From Cytophagaceae bacterium (GTDB lineage Bacteria > Bacteroidota > Bacteroidia > Cytophagales > Flexibacteraceae): a stretch of 64,000 nt of DNA. Within the stretch, counting starts at the first letter, position 1; each line of letters opens with the position of its first letter. The position numbers were made by a program, and so were the translations under genes. The notes under the pieces are model-generated. The model was not told the origin of the DNA. It searched no databases and saw only the letters and a list, made by a program, of their open reading frames with translations. Below, piece by piece: positions 3,337-13,839 of this stretch. The stretch lies in the NCBI GenBank assembly GCA_027487695.1, contig JAIYDB010000043.1, forward strand, positions 1 to 64,000. Direction: 5' to 3'.

Positions 3337-4662
3337 ATGAAACAGTTTATCAACACCATTAAAAATATCTTCTCTATTCAGGAACTGAAAGAGAGGCTTC
3401 TTTATACCTTTTTATTCTTAGCAGTTTTTCGCTTAGGTTCCTTTGTGGTACTTCCAGCGGTAAATCCTGCCATGCTTGAAGATGGTGACGGAAGTGGTAT
3501 TTTAGGTTTGTTAGATACCTTCTTAGGCGGGGCGTTTTCGAACGCCTCCGTTTTTGGTTTAGGTATTATGCCGTATATATCGGCCTCAATTATTTTGCAG
3601 CTTTTAGTAGTGGCAGTGCCATTCTTCCAAAAGCTTAGCAAAGAGGGCGAAAGCGGCAGAAAGAAAATTAATCAATACACCCGTGTGCTTACCATTGCGG
3701 TAGCAGTTGCACAAAGTATTGGTTATTTGGCTACAACTATTCCTCAAGAAGCAATTAGACCAGATTTTAATGGCGTTTACTTCTTCCTAACATCGGTGCC
3801 GCTAATTGTTGCAGGTACTATGTTTTGTATGTGGTTAGGTGAGAAGATTACTGAAAAAGGAATTGGTAACGGTATTAGTATGATTATCATGATTGGTATC
3901 ATTAGCCGTTTACCTAGTGCAATTATCAAGGAATTTGTAAGCAAAGAAATGACTGGTGTAATGTTCGCCTTCATTGAATTGATTATCTTATTCGTAGTAG
4001 TTGTATTTGTAGTAGCTATTACCCAAGCTACCCGCAGAATTCCAATTGAATACGCAAGACAAATGGTTGGTAACAGAGTTGTTCGTGGCGAACGTCAGTT
4101 CCTTCCTTTAAAGTTTAACAGTGCAGGTGTAATGCCAATTATCTTTGCACAAGCATTAATGTTTTTACCTGCGTTGTTTGCTTCAACCTTCCGTGAGAGT
4201 TTAGAGATTGCCGATAAAATTGGTAGTACTTTCTCTGATGTTACTAGCTGGCAGTACAACCTAGTAAACGCATTGCTAATTGTTATTTTTACTTATTTCT
4301 ACACAGCTATTGCGGTTAACCCACAACAGATCTCTGAAGATTTAAGAAGGAATAACGGTTATATCCCGGGTGTTCAGCCTGGCGAAGCTACTACAGAGTA
4401 TATTTCTACCATCATTGATAGAATTACACTTCCAGGAGCTTTATTCTTAGCTTTAATTGCCATTATGCCAGCTATTGCTAAAGTAGCAGGTGTAAATCAG
4501 GAATTAGCTTACTTCTTCGGTGGTACTTCACTACTGATTATGGTGGGTGTTATCCTTGATACCTTACAGCAAATTGAAAGCTACTTATTAATGCAGCAAT
4601 ACGAAGGAATGATGAAAACCGATAGGTTCTCTGGTACTCCTGAAGCTATGGCTACCTTATAA
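3337..4662 (+). CDS. secY: Preprotein translocase channel subunit SecY
   Basis: SecY forms the protein-conducting channel in the inner membrane with SecE and SecG. The 441-residue product has ten predicted hydrophobic segments, the plug-region and first-loop motif LGIMPYISASIILQLL (about residues 75-90), and a late cytosolic loop with the pattern IPGVQPGEATTEY. Its place between rplO and map is the conserved one. All secretion in the window that depends on signal peptides, including the type IX substrates, would pass through this channel. Confidence 0.97.
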   Translation: MKQFINTIKNIFSIQELKERLLYTFLFLAVFRLGSFVVLPAVNPAMLEDGDGSGILGLLDTFLGGAFSNASVFGLGIMPYISASIILQLLVVAVPFFQKLSKEGESGRKKINQYTRVLTIAVAVAQSIGYLATTIPQEAIRPDFNGVYFFLTSVPLIVAGTMFCMWLGEKITEKGIGNGISMIIMIGIISRLPSAIIKEFVSKEMTGVMFAFIELIILFVVVVFVVAITQATRRIPIEYARQMVGNRVVRGERQFLPLKFNSAGVMPIIFAQALMFLPALFASTFRESLEIADKIGSTFSDVTSWQYNLVNALLIVIFTYFYTAIAVNPQQISEDLRRNNGYIPGVQPGEATTEYISTIIDRITLPGALFLALIAIMPAIAKVAGVNQELAYFFGGTSLLIMVGVILDTLQQIESYLLMQQYEGMMKTDRFSGTPEAMATL

Positions 4663-9089: not shown

Positions 9090-10688
9090 TTAGGCAATTC
9101 CTTTTAAGGTAAAGCTCATGGTATTGTTTTCAGTTGGGTTTAGTTGTAGACTTTGAATTTGGAATGGGCTTTGTTTGTAGGCTACCTTATTGGCTTGAAT
9201 AAGATTCCCTAATTCCTGGACTGAGATTTTGCCTTCTGTTTGCAGGACTTTGGTAAATGTATTTTTCTCATCTTCTAAAGTCAATACTACTGGTACGAAG
9301 CTTGTAATAGTATAGCCTTCCAATTTTATTTGTTGGGAACTTTCAGGCACTTTAACAAGGAATGTAGGTTGCGAATAACTTACAATTTCACTAGGTGAGG
9401 GAAGTAAATTCTTTGTACTCGGTAATTGAATAGCCGCAGCAGTTACTGTGCTAAGGTGTAGGTATTGGTTGAATCTGTTGATTTGAATCAGCTTGTTATT
9501 CCTATAGCTGCGCTCATTGAAATTGATGTTTATTTCATTCTTTGTTTTGCTAGCAATAGGTAAATCATAATCCACTTGTGTCGGCATTACAAGTTCAAGG
9601 GTGTTGTTAAATTGGTTCCATTGCCATTGTTTCCCCGTTGTGTTTTCTATAAGTTGAAATAGTTCCCCAACTGTGATATTATCTAGCAGTTGGCTAACCA
9701 CAATGCCTTCATTGGTTTGTGGAATTATGGTACCAGCTATACTATAATTGAGGTCGACAAAGGTATTGTCTGGTACTAGGGTAATAGTAAATAAGTCGTT
9801 TGTAACTCCATCGCCTTCTAAGTTGAGCGTATAAGTTTGGCTACTATTGGCTTCTACCTCATAACTTAAAATAGCTTCTTGCTTTAAAAGTACTTGGCTT
9901 GGATCGGTAATATTGATATAGAAAAGACCTGTATTACTACTATTGCCATTGTTTTCCAAGGTGAGGTTAACTGTTGTTTGTACTGAATAATTACTCAGAA
10001 AGGTGGTTTTATAAACCTTAGCTACAGATGTATGGGCCTCTGTAATAGTACCTAGTTCCGAATTCAATGATAGTCCTAATGCATTGCTGACCTCAAAATT
10101 TATTGCAGCAAGTGTTTGCCAAGGCCAGTTTATTGCTTGGTTACCAAAGTAGGGTAACACTAATTCCTCTGATAAGGGACTAATATCAATGCCTATTGCT
10201 TTGCTTAGGCTTTGAAGTAATGGATTTATCCTAACTGCTGGTGGAAGTAAATCAATCGGCAGATTTGTGGGTTTGTCTAAAGGCCATTGCTGGTAGCCAA
10301 TTAGTGGAAAGCAAAGGAGTTCTGTTGGTGTTTGGTTGTAATAGTCAATACTTCCTTCCTCAAAACCGCTTAGTGTGAAAGGATAATTGTCTAAGCTTTC
10401 TAGTTGATTGGCAAGAAGTTGGTTGTTCTTTAAAAGTGCAGATTCAATATTAGTATATTGAAATTGTGTATTGCTACCTTCCAAGTGCGTGATTTCTTCA
10501 AGCACAAAACAGCCAAGCCAAGTGCCGTCTAGGGTTAGATAAACTGATTTTCCTAAACTAGTTTCAGCTTCCGGATTGGCCGTTTTAATGAAGGAGCATT
10601 CAATAGTCTTGTCGTTTTTACCTATTTGTTTGCATTCATTTACGCTGAATTCGATTATAGGTATATGATTATTTTCCATCGGTTTCAA
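9090..10688 (-). CDS. Unrecognised 532-residue protein of the terminase cassette, possibly tail-like
   Basis: I do not recognise this protein with certainty. It has no signal peptide or membrane segment. The N-terminal 160 residues include a segment SVYLTLDGTWLGCFVLEE and a stretch with AVRINPLLQSLSKAIGIDI. The middle (about 225-330) reads as a beta-sandwich rich in Thr, Asn and Val. Near residue 345 is a piece, TVGELFQLIENTTGKQW, that recalls short modules seen in phage tail or baseplate proteins; this is a resemblance noted by eye, not a match. The start overlaps the stop of the upstream gene by up to 20 bases (a second ATG at 10679 would shorten the overlap to 11), pointing to coupled translation with the terminase group. 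Confidence 0.6.
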   Translation of the reverse strand: MKPMENNHIPIIEFSVNECKQIGKNDKTIECSFIKTANPEAETSLGKSVYLTLDGTWLGCFVLEEITHLEGSNTQFQYTNIESALLKNNQLLANQLESLDNYPFTLSGFEEGSIDYYNQTPTELLCFPLIGYQQWPLDKPTNLPIDLLPPAVRINPLLQSLSKAIGIDISPLSEELVLPYFGNQAINWPWQTLAAINFEVSNALGLSLNSELGTITEAHTSVAKVYKTTFLSNYSVQTTVNLTLENNGNSSNTGLFYINITDPSQVLLKQEAILSYEVEANSSQTYTLNLEGDGVTNDLFTITLVPDNTFVDLNYSIAGTIIPQTNEGIVVSQLLDNITVGELFQLIENTTGKQWQWNQFNNTLELVMPTQVDYDLPIASKTKNEININFNERSYRNNKLIQINRFNQYLHLSTVTAAAIQLPSTKNLLPSPSEIVSYSQPTFLVKVPESSQQIKLEGYTITSFVPVVLTLEDEKNTFTKVLQTEGKISVQELGNLIQANKVAYKQSPFQIQSLQLNPTENNTMSFTLKGIA

Positions 10689-12036
10689 GGGTTAATGTGA
10701 GAAAGTTATCTGTGCTGGTGAGGTAGGTAATACTTGAAATGGTATTGGCTGTTTCTATTCCATGCCTAACCATCCATTTCTCGGGACTATTTTGCCATTG
10801 AGTTATAGCATGATTATCTAAGCCCATTGGTTCACTTAAGTACCTACGCTTGCCATTCAGATAATGCTCATTTGCAATAGGGATATGCAAGAAACTTGGC
10901 AACCCAAAAGGATTTAAGAATCCGAGGGTGACTGTTTCAGAGGTATTAGGCTGAAGGGAAAATTCCCAATCAGTACCTTGATACAAAATCTGACTACCAC
11001 CTTCTACACTTACCTTTATCTTAGTTTGGGGATTGCTAAAGTCGGTCGCTTGTAACCAATAGACATATAAACCTGGCGAGTTGGCATTTCCAATGCTTAT
11101 CACATCGGTATTTATTACTGTTTCCCCTTGCAGACTTTTAATTTTTAAATTGATAATTGCGGTTGGGTTTATATATCTGTCGATTTGCGCAGGGACTATG
11201 AAATATAAGGGTAGGGCAGGGCAGCCTTCTATCAATACCCTGCTTTCAAACCTATTCAGTGGGATACCAACTTGGGTAGAGGATGGAAGTAAATCAAAGG
11301 CGTTTATTTCTTCAGGGATGTTGGGTAGAAACATAATTGGATCAGAAACACCCAACCGATTTAAAAGTCCGTTTTCTTCTTGGAGATAGGCTGTTAGTTG
11401 AAGGCTTTGAAAAGCAAGACGTTCAAGTCCTTCTTTGGGTACCCTTGAAAATTGCACCTTATCAAAATTTATATTGGTACTAATTGGGTGGATTCCGCTC
11501 GGATTTAAAGGGTAAATCTTCTGTGCCTTCACCCTTTGTTCGGTTAACCAATTACCACCTTCAGAATATGTTGTTCCTGTTCTGTAATTGATAACTAATT
11601 TATTTTGAGGGAGATAATATGGATTTATTGCTTCCCCATTGTTGATTATGGATACACTTTCAATGGCAGGGCTTTCGCTTATAGTTTCAGTTTCAAGTAA
11701 AATGTGTTTGCTTTTAGGCTTTGCGAAAAGATTGAGTATATGAGTGCTCTCAACAGAAGTATAAAAGTTGTTAAACTGTGGATGGTAATTAATTAGGTTT
11801 TGAAGGCTAATTGCAGGTGAGTTGGCATTGAAATAGAAGGGCAGTTTAGTTTCCGAACTGGCTAGGAATGAGGTGCCTAATAGTACAAGCGAACTTGCTA
11901 AGGGAATTGAGGTATTAAAGTTGAGCCTGATATGTGCATCACTTTCTTCCAGAATAGGATCTATAATTTCGAAAGTTATAACAGGTGGCTTGGCAGCACT
12001 TTGAATAGTAGTGGGTTGATTAAATCTGATTTCCAT
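10669..12036 (-). CDS. Unrecognised 455-residue protein of the terminase cassette
   Basis: No family is recognised. The protein lacks a signal peptide and transmembrane segments and is predicted mainly beta by composition, with many alternating hydrophobic and Ser/Thr/Asn residues. Its first line is MEIRFNQPTTIQSAAKPPV. A segment near residue 375 with GFLNPFGLPSFLHIPI is distinctive. It begins 9 bases after the terminase large subunit gene ends and overlaps the next gene, so the four genes are very likely one transcript. In a phage the position after terL is usually the portal gene, but this protein does not have the helical character of a portal, so I make no such claim. Confidence 0.6.
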   Translation of the reverse strand: MEIRFNQPTTIQSAAKPPVITFEIIDPILEESDAHIRLNFNTSIPLASSLVLLGTSFLASSETKLPFYFNANSPAISLQNLINYHPQFNNFYTSVESTHILNLFAKPKSKHILLETETISESPAIESVSIINNGEAINPYYLPQNKLVINYRTGTTYSEGGNWLTEQRVKAQKIYPLNPSGIHPISTNINFDKVQFSRVPKEGLERLAFQSLQLTAYLQEENGLLNRLGVSDPIMFLPNIPEEINAFDLLPSSTQVGIPLNRFESRVLIEGCPALPLYFIVPAQIDRYINPTAIINLKIKSLQGETVINTDVISIGNANSPGLYVYWLQATDFSNPQTKIKVSVEGGSQILYQGTDWEFSLQPNTSETVTLGFLNPFGLPSFLHIPIANEHYLNGKRRYLSEPMGLDNHAITQWQNSPEKWMVRHGIETANTISSITYLTSTDNFLTLTLETDGK

Positions 12037-12045
12037 AGCGTTGGT

Positions 12046-13398
12046 TTAGTTGAATGAAAATATTTGTGGTTTAAGGGCGAAGTACATCCGAAGCATCACG
12101 GCATCTGCTAAATCTGGACTATGACCTAGGATACGTTTTTGCTCGTCTTTTGAATTGATGTTTACGGTTCCATCGATTACATCTGTAGCTCTATGAATGC
12201 ATTCTAGTTCTTCATTGAGTCGGTCAATGATGGTTTTGCCGTGAAAAATCGCTGCCGCTGCATTAGGGGAAATACTGATTTGATTAGCTTCCATCAACTC
12301 CTGCAACTTGAAATAGCATTGCGCCTTCAAGTGTTGGAAATTGGCAAGTCGATTTCCCGATTTTTCTGGTTTTCTATTGGCGTGAAAGCCTATACTGCCT
12401 GGCAGAATATCGGTAACGCCACTGCCAATACCATCGGCATCAATTACAATGCAGTTAGCTGCGATGTGGTGTGTGCGACGAAGGTTACTGATATACTCAG
12501 CAGATTGGGCTATAGAGAACTTTTCTAGGCAGGCTATTTCCTTTATATGCAGATCTTGCCACCTGATTACTACGGTGGTATCTGAACCAAATCGAGCTAT
12601 ATCGGCACTGATATAACCTTTGCCTACCATTTGCTTGGCTTCGGCAATGGTTATCTTTTCAAGTATTTGGGGTGGGAAAAGACTTAAGGCATTGCTATCA
12701 AATTCCCATAAACCGTGCAAAAGGCGTTGCTTAGAAATAGCATCTAATTGGGCAAGCTGTTCGGCATACTGTTGGGCAAAATCGGCTTTGAGATTATCCT
12801 TAAGTAAGGCTTGCACAAATGCACGTTCTGTTGGAAGGATACCCAATTTCCAAGGTTCATAAAACCGACGGAATAGCCAGTTTCTGCTTGGGTTTGCAGT
12901 AAGCAATAATTTAGCGCACCTACCACTTTCTTTGATTTTGTAACGGATACGACTTGCCAGAATGAGCGATGCTTTTTCAGTAACCTCAGCAGCTTCATCA
13001 ATAAAGGCATCTGTAATTTCAAGAGAGCCAAGTCGGGCATAGTCAGGATCAGAAGGGAGCCAAGCTATTTCTTTCAAGTAAATGGTACTGCCGTTGATAA
13101 ACTCTATAATACCGGCATCGGCCTTGTATTTGAAATGCTTGCCAGATATAAATCCCATTTGCTTTGCTACCTGAAATAAGGTTTGCAAGGTGGTAGTAAG
13201 TAAATGCTTGGCTCTGGCACGAGCTATTACCCCACGACTTTCTGGTATTCTGATGCGTTCTGTAATTTGCCAGCAACAACCTAAGAAGGTTTTAGCACCT
13301 CCGGCAGCACCACCATACAGTAGCTCTCGGGTATGCTGGTTATACAGCAAATTGAGGGCTTCGCCTTGTTTTGGGAAAATGAAGATATCAGTTTCCAT
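12046..13398 (-). CDS. Phage-type terminase large subunit
   Basis: Terminase large subunits package phage DNA into capsids with an ATPase motor and a nuclease. This 450-residue product is full length and both domains look intact. ATPase: Walker A-like GGAAGGAKT (29-37, with Ala in place of the usual final Gly), Walker B AFIDEAAEV with D134 and E135, and the coupling motif LLLTANPS (about 164-171). Nuclease, RNase H fold: D266 in SADIARFGSD, D320 and D322 in VIDADGIGSG, D429 and D432 in PDLADAV. It overlaps the small gene upstream by 11 bases. No portal, capsid, protease or integrase gene is seen in the window, so its role here is unknown. Confidence 0.88.
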   Translation of the reverse strand: METDIFIFPKQGEALNLLYNQHTRELLYGGAAGGAKTFLGCCWQITERIRIPESRGVIARARAKHLLTTTLQTLFQVAKQMGFISGKHFKYKADAGIIEFINGSTIYLKEIAWLPSDPDYARLGSLEITDAFIDEAAEVTEKASLILASRIRYKIKESGRCAKLLLTANPSRNWLFRRFYEPWKLGILPTERAFVQALLKDNLKADFAQQYAEQLAQLDAISKQRLLHGLWEFDSNALSLFPPQILEKITIAEAKQMVGKGYISADIARFGSDTTVVIRWQDLHIKEIACLEKFSIAQSAEYISNLRRTHHIAANCIVIDADGIGSGVTDILPGSIGFHANRKPEKSGNRLANFQHLKAQCYFKLQELMEANQISISPNAAAAIFHGKTIIDRLNEELECIHRATDVIDGTVNINSKDEQKRILGHSPDLADAVMLRMYFALKPQIFSFN

Positions 13399-13747
13399 TA
13401 GAGGCTAATTCAGAGGTAAAGGGTTTCAAGTTGATGCTGATAGGCTCTGAAGCATCGGTTTCATTTTGAGTAATTGGAGCAGGCTTTGGTGCCGCCCATT
13501 GTTCTACTAACTGGAACCATAGTTTCTGATGCGTTACACTGCCTGCAATAGCTTTGTTAAACACACTTGCTAACACCAATTCCGATAGCGGCTTTAGGTG
13601 TTGGTAAGGGGTAATTGGCTCTAAAGTTTCATTTGTATTATGCTGGAAGAATGGTTTACATTCTTCTGCATTGGGCAATCGCTTTTCATCTGCAAGCATT
13701 TGCAAACAGAAAGCGGCTAACCTTTCCTTGTTTGTTTCAGTAGTCAT
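13388..13747 (-). CDS. Small protein in terminase small-subunit position
   Basis: The 119-residue product lies just upstream of the terminase large subunit and overlaps it by 11 bases, the usual place for a small subunit, which recognises the DNA to be packaged. The sequence, starting MTTETNKERLAAF, has a helical central part (LSELVLASVFNKAIAGSVTHQKLWFQLVE, described here as residues about 55-85) and a polar tail, but no motif that I can tie to a known family. A longer frame exists from a TTG at 13774, but the ATG at 13747 is preferred because a promoter-like TACTTTG lies just upstream of it on the minus strand (13772-13778 region). Confidence 0.55.
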   Translation of the reverse strand: MTTETNKERLAAFCLQMLADEKRLPNAEECKPFFQHNTNETLEPITPYQHLKPLSELVLASVFNKAIAGSVTHQKLWFQLVEQWAAPKPAPITQNETDASEPISINLKPFTSELASNGN

Positions 13748-13839
13748 AAAATTAATCCAATGGTTCAAAGGCAAAGTACGCGCTTGTACCTATGCGCTTT
13801 ACAGCCTTACGGATTATTGGGATAGCCAAAAAATTGCAC

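Follow-up and report, generated by a model that had tools for sequence, protein, structure and literature searches.

How a terminase with intact motifs comes to sit among ordinary host genes is the question raised by a four-gene cassette in a Bacteroidota chromosome. The window (the whole stretch of DNA that was analysed, 64,000 nucleotides) comes from Cytophagaceae bacterium GCA_027487695.1, contig JAIYDB010000043.1, positions 1-64,000 (G000:C21:1-64000). The genome, G000, is a 2.89 Mb draft Bacteroidota genome, and the contig, C21, is 76.9 kb long. The analysis suggests that the cassette is probably locus A of a two-locus, host-domesticated phage particle resembling a gene transfer agent (GTA). 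A more tentative reading is that the element is a new, independently evolved GTA lineage of Bacteroidota, found in freshwater Cytophagales, in which terminase and head are split and the tail is strongly remodelled or free of a tape measure.

The cassette consists of four co-oriented minus-strand ORFs that form a compact operon between rplQ and two lipoprotein genes with IPT/TIG domains (Table 1). Between neighbouring ORFs there are overlaps of 20 and 11 bases, the latter between terS and terL, and a gap of 9 bases. The longest frame of P532 reaches a TTG at 10688, but the ATG at 10679 is the more likely start. The original prediction of a four-gene terminase cassette at this site is confirmed by the four ORFs and by the TerL profiles and motifs, and its statement that base composition equals that of the neighbours is borne out by GC and GC3 (host-like in both). 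Its remark that head genes are absent holds for the window, but such genes lie elsewhere in the G000 chromosome. In whole-genome searches, no portal or capsid genes of the types sought were found on C21 and no second TerL of the same type was found in G000, which was searched for further loci by query only.

Table 1. Genes of the terminase cassette (locus A) in the window
Gene	Position	Strand	Product	Remarks
terS	13388..13747	-	Small terminase subunit	119 aa; possible TTG start at 13774
terL	12046..13398	-	Large terminase subunit (ATPase + nuclease)	450 aa
P455	10669..12036	-	Probable divergent tail protein, phi46:1 gp19 type	Weak evidence
P532	9090..10679	-	Probable divergent tail hub-type protein, phi46:1 gp20 type	Weak to moderate evidence

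TerL matches the PHROG TerL profiles phrog_979 (E 3.5e-25) and phrog_2 (E 3e-23) and matches Pfam Terminase_3 under the family cut-off. A profile of the TerL group matches the nuclease part of a solved 'Gene 2 protein' (E 3.6e-6), which we take to be the TerL of phage Sf6. The Walker A (GGAAGGAKT) and Walker B (AFIDEA) motifs are intact and align with those of phage TerLs, as do the acidic motifs of the nuclease (SADIARFG, IDADGIG, and SPDLAD). The TerL of Flavobacterium phage 11b is 39% identical to the window TerL. Among 59 related genomes, TerL relatives are present in three: G000 itself and G004 and G007 (44-45% identity to the window TerL), which are freshwater Cytophagaceae MAGs of one genus (D8_MAG_00019, a pond MAG, and RE-27jun17-70). 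All three carriers are draft assemblies with completeness of 94-100%. The G004 cassette has the order terS-terL-163 aa-500 aa-667 aa and ends beside pgk, and the G007 cassette is interrupted by a contig end inside terL.

Identity between the window TerS and its positional counterpart in G004 is 24% (E 1e-10). A profile of the element TerS group hits the TerS of a prophage (G207, E 2.4e-5), and a search in the opposite direction recovers G007 (2.6e-5) and G004 (6e-4). The G004 protein aligns over an N-terminal helix-turn-helix-like segment and a C-terminal KLWLQLxE motif, and the N-terminal segment is still recognisable in the TerS of both G004 and G007. The window TerS aligns with the prophage TerS at the C-terminal KLWxQLxE motif only, its N-terminal helix-turn-helix-like region being without a match. 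A TerS with no detectable DNA-binding domain is known in described GTAs (PMC11841831). The reduced TerS of G000 would fit a loss of packaging specificity, an indirect hint to be read beside the retained segment of G004 and G007.

The cassette does not stand alone as originally proposed. A search for the portal (PF04860) in 11 genomes of the family gave matches in G000, G004, and G007 only, away from the terminase. Within the family, a capsid of the element type occurs in exactly these three genomes and never on the TerL contig, while the other eight contain neither the terminase half nor the head half. If the two traits were independent, they would coincide in the same three of the 11 family genomes with a probability of 1/165 and in the same three of 59 genomes with a probability of 3e-5; both figures ignore relatedness, and the two same-genus carriers are not independent. 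Because the unlinked protease-capsid-portal-connector locus co-occurs with the terminase in all three carriers, the cassette is best regarded as one part of a dispersed particle, which does not support the view of it as the surviving piece of a prophage.

In G000 the head locus (locus B) extends from position 3730 to the end of contig C98 and over positions 1-1536 of C56, unlinked to the cassette. The head cluster encodes an XkdF-like protease/scaffold (PF14550, E 1.4e-11), the major capsid protein, three small proteins, a portal (PF04860, E 6e-9), a connector (DUF6712), and, in G000, an Amidase_3 endolysin. The G000 portal is cut by the contig end, where C98 and C56 have an identical 119-base overlap, and when read across this overlap it is an intact frame of 392 residues. 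A possible cause of this assembly break (C98 end/C56 start; L019, L018) is that the sample contained several strain variants of the element. The G000 locus is flanked by SatD/DUF3307-like and Smr-domain genes on one side and TonB/ExbB/ExbD-like genes on the other, and the head loci of G004 and G007 by SprT-like and LptF-like genes; these names come from reading of the sequences, and profile searches covered only some of the flank genes. The ORFs around both loci in the three carriers read as ordinary host genes, and no integrase or replication gene was recognised among them by such reading. A small basic ORF (L019, about 3440-3625, minus strand) diverges from the protease gene, and a palindrome-like GGATATA-ATG-TATATCC lies between the two, within 90 bases downstream of the ORF. 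The ORF may encode a local regulator of the head locus, with the palindrome as operator. A search for a promoter motif common to loci A and B gave none that was convincing.

The element capsid matches no Pfam capsid family and matches the virion structural protein profiles phrog_11320 and phrog_1623 (E 3e-12). When a model built from 11 sequences (pLDDT 65, pTM 0.63) was compared with the PDB, it matched the P2/P4 procapsid (E 6e-9) and further shells of the HK97 fold. Its matches in BFVD include proteins annotated as phage major capsid (best named match E 3.6e-19). TM-scores of the structural matches are 0.4-0.6, which reflects the modest model, and the predicted HK97 fold of the major capsid protein is sound. 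Residues 182-238 of the capsid (L019:4798-5961) form an inserted beta domain with a weak match to the E1_FCCH domain of ubiquitin-activating enzymes, and a weak match to the same domain occurs in the connector of a related prophage in G101 (L034:11922-12695).

Of the two companion proteins of the cassette, P455 gave no family match in profile searches, and P532 had no phage family match among PHROG profiles and no match in the phage collection; IMG/VR scans with both proteins also found nothing. P455 and P532 occupy the positions of gp19 and gp20 of Cellulophaga phage phi46:1. By hhalign, P455 scores E 0.007 against a gp19-type profile of 31 sequences, at a common Asn-x-x-Gly motif (wrong-protein control, P532, 0.086), and P532 scores E 6e-4 over 574 columns against a hub profile of 33 sequences (wrong-protein control, P455, 0.4). 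Single-profile hmmsearch of both proteins against these tail-protein types was not significant. An AlphaFold model of P532 from two sequences had a pLDDT of 34.5 and was not used as evidence. The profile-profile scores and the matching position in phi46:1 make it likely, short of proof, that P455 and P532 are divergent tail proteins. In the three carriers, alignment A5 and PF10145 detected no tape measure, phrog_1506 gave weak matches only, and ordinary hub and tail-tube profiles gave nothing, each of these searches being without a positive control inside those genomes. The weak phrog_1506 matches were read as the host transglycosylase MltD and rejected as tape measures. Since none of these three kinds of tail gene was detected in the carriers, the particle may be tailless, incomplete, or equipped with tail genes too divergent to detect.

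The element probably derives from phages of Bacteroidota. The first TerL and capsid trees were too small or badly resolved, and a larger TerL tree was used. In this tree, which includes 22 phage TerLs, the three element TerLs group in a separate clade of their own (support 100/97), and their sister group consists of the IMG/VR phages L161, L132, and L114 (88/87). In phi46:1 the genes are ordered portal-connector-holin-amidase-TerL-three small genes-gp19-gp20-tape measure, and locus B followed by locus A reproduces this order. Capsids related to that of the element occur in contiguous prophages of G101 and of five genomes of genus g208; the identity of the capsids is 63% between the two element genera versus 31-38% to these prophage relatives, and no near relative was found in virus collections. 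One phage lineage is thus probably ancestral to the element, and the best reading is that the particle was derived independently from a siphophage of Bacteroidota. The five g208 genomes were considered as carriers of the same dispersed element and rejected, as their prophages are contiguous and include tape measure and lysozyme genes. These prophages (G500, G586, G660, G681, and G739; L070-L074) have varied extra genes between the hub and the tape measure.

Evidence of maintenance comes from a comparison within the sister genus, between G004 and G007. Nine testable genes of both loci have dN/dS values from 0.018 (capsid) to 0.184, and their dS of 0.28-0.82 is comparable to that of five flanking host genes (0.21-0.56). 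P667 was not found in G007, so P667 and P500 fell outside this test. The genes on either side of the head locus are shared by the two MAGs. The low dN/dS, the host-like dS, and the shared neighbours indicate that the element diverged with its host under purifying selection within that genus. The window copy has no close relative, and its selection is therefore judged from intact frames, overlaps, and motifs, which suggest that it too is maintained. Every ORF of the element is open in all three carriers, and neither stop codons nor neutral rates were found. The earlier preference for maintained function over decay is therefore upheld. Between the genera, the capsids are 63% identical, TerL and portal each 44%, and RpoA, for comparison, 77.5%. 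The loci of G000 occupy other chromosomal sites than those of G004 and G007, so that relocation or separate acquisition is needed. A search for a prophage bearing the same cassette between homologous flanks found none. In the other genomes that could be checked, the rplQ site is without the cassette, whose position there is therefore specific to the window's lineage.

The gene content, the dispersal in three genomes, the common origin of TerL, the vertical descent under purifying selection in one genus, and the capsid fold have direct support, and a plausible mode of action can be built on them. Locus A would supply TerS, TerL, and the two probable tail proteins, and locus B the prohead protease, HK97-fold capsid, three small proteins, portal, connector, and endolysin. 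Host control would turn on both loci together, and a procapsid with one portal would assemble. TerL would fill it with host DNA, and the reduced TerS that guides it would have little if any preference for particular sequences. The cell would then lyse, and particles with short or unusual tails would deliver DNA to kin.

GTAs are defined as caudoviricete-derived, endogenised, often at several loci, mostly vertically inherited, and co-diversifying with the host; they package mostly random host DNA, do not carry all their own genes in one particle, and deliver DNA to cells (PMC9662315). Two of six features are present in the element, namely caudoviricete-derived proteins (TerL, portal, protease, and connector by profiles, and the HK97-fold capsid) and endogenisation at two loci, which lie on different contigs with host-gene flanks in three genomes. 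Vertical inheritance is found within one genus, the insertion sites of the three carriers differing between genera, and none of the six features is contradicted. The particle is unlikely to carry all its own genes together because the loci are unlinked. By its anatomy the element should work like a GTA, and we call it GTA-like rather than an established GTA. A prophage would be a contiguous genome with an integrase or att sites and replication or regulatory genes, and a cfPICI a single island with its own integrase and replication genes; the element is split into two unlinked loci, and neither an integrase nor a primase was recognised close to them.

Head and packaging genes without classical tail genes are the gene set of capsid-forming satellites, each of which is integrated as one unit that includes an integrase and replication genes. 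Because head and packaging genes were found here and classical tail genes were not, and because a cfPICI capsid (9gyi) is among the structural matches of the capsid, the element could be such a satellite, or a defective prophage, that makes its own heads and uses the tails of a helper phage. This is most unlikely given two unlinked loci, no recognised integrase, and host-like synonymous rates. A domesticated particle with another use, such as a PBSX-like killing particle or capsids released without DNA injection, is rather unlikely. It would agree with the unrecognised tail tube and tape measure, which may make injection impossible, and PBSX, which packages random host DNA without delivering it, has a bacteriocin-like action (PMC7667829). 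Against this reading, two probable tail proteins are retained here, a full tail would be expected of a killing particle, and PBSX is described as one gene cluster (PMC7667829).

The split loci, the apparently missing tail genes, and the fact that P455, P532, and the small head genes differ strongly from one genus to the other could also mark functionless remnants of one or more prophages, split by rearrangement and not yet decayed. This is very unlikely, as all ORFs are open in three genomes, both halves are present or absent together, and dN/dS of 0.02-0.18 over a dS of 0.3-0.8 is not neutral drift. Two independent acquisitions of a related mobile phage, one per genus and each later split, are compatible with GTA-like function, so that their probability does not compete with it; we regard them as fairly unlikely. 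The different insertion sites and the TerLs of free phages, which are as similar to the window TerL (40-44%) as is the G004 TerL, speak for them. Against them stand the single clade of element TerLs (100/97), capsids far closer between genera than to those of prophages and with no nearer relative in virus collections, and a two-part layout that would need to arise twice. No phage genome with a TerL or capsid intermediate between the copies of G000 and of G004/G007 was found. A GTA-like particle in two loci is thus the preferred reading.

The closest analogue is FpGTA of Faecalibacterium, which likewise has two unlinked operons, TerL, portal, capsid, and lysis genes, a TerS without an obvious DNA-binding domain, and no replication genes (PMC12946183). 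FpGTA particles have no visible tails, and no tape measure or tail tube was recognised in the element. For FpGTA, particles, proteomics, and about 9 kb of packaged host DNA have been shown (PMC12946183). Terminase and capsid are in one operon in FpGTA but are split between loci in the element, and host phylum and apparent phage ancestor also differ. RcGTA of Rhodobacter capsulatus is similar in having caudoviricete-derived, vertically inherited genes at several chromosomal loci, but it has five loci and proven transfer (PMC9662315), while no complete tail module was recognised in the element; judged by the nearest relatives found, their phage ancestries differ. No described GTA locus in Bacteroidota was found in the open-access literature.

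Among phages, phi46:1 (KC821611) shares the order portal-connector-amidase-TerL-gp19-gp20 when locus B precedes locus A, and the prophages of G101 and genus g208 share homologous capsids and portal/connector families. In contrast to the split element, phi46:1 and the related prophages keep their genes together in a single contiguous block. This block includes a tape measure, a tail tube, and small tail-completion genes, which were not found in the element, and phi46:1 has an integrase. The IMG/VR viruses L160, L161, and L163 share a portal homologue (E 4e-46) and a connector. Unlike the element, these viruses and L132 and L147 are contiguous genomes with accessory genes, and L147 has ordinary gp19 and hub proteins after TerL.

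If confirmed, the element would provide genes that can be sought in freshwater viromes and would allow a test of how hosts split and keep phage modules. It would also be an example of a particle that may do without a classical tape measure. A 'lone' chromosomal terminase should prompt a check for unlinked head genes.

The IPT/TIG-domain lipoproteins beside the cassette deserve mention in their own right. Two related genes in tandem lie directly upstream of terS (window:13927-15529, minus strand), and the product of the first also has a weak match to DUF6252. In G004, the third protein of the head cluster likewise ends in an IPT/TIG domain (E 3e-8).
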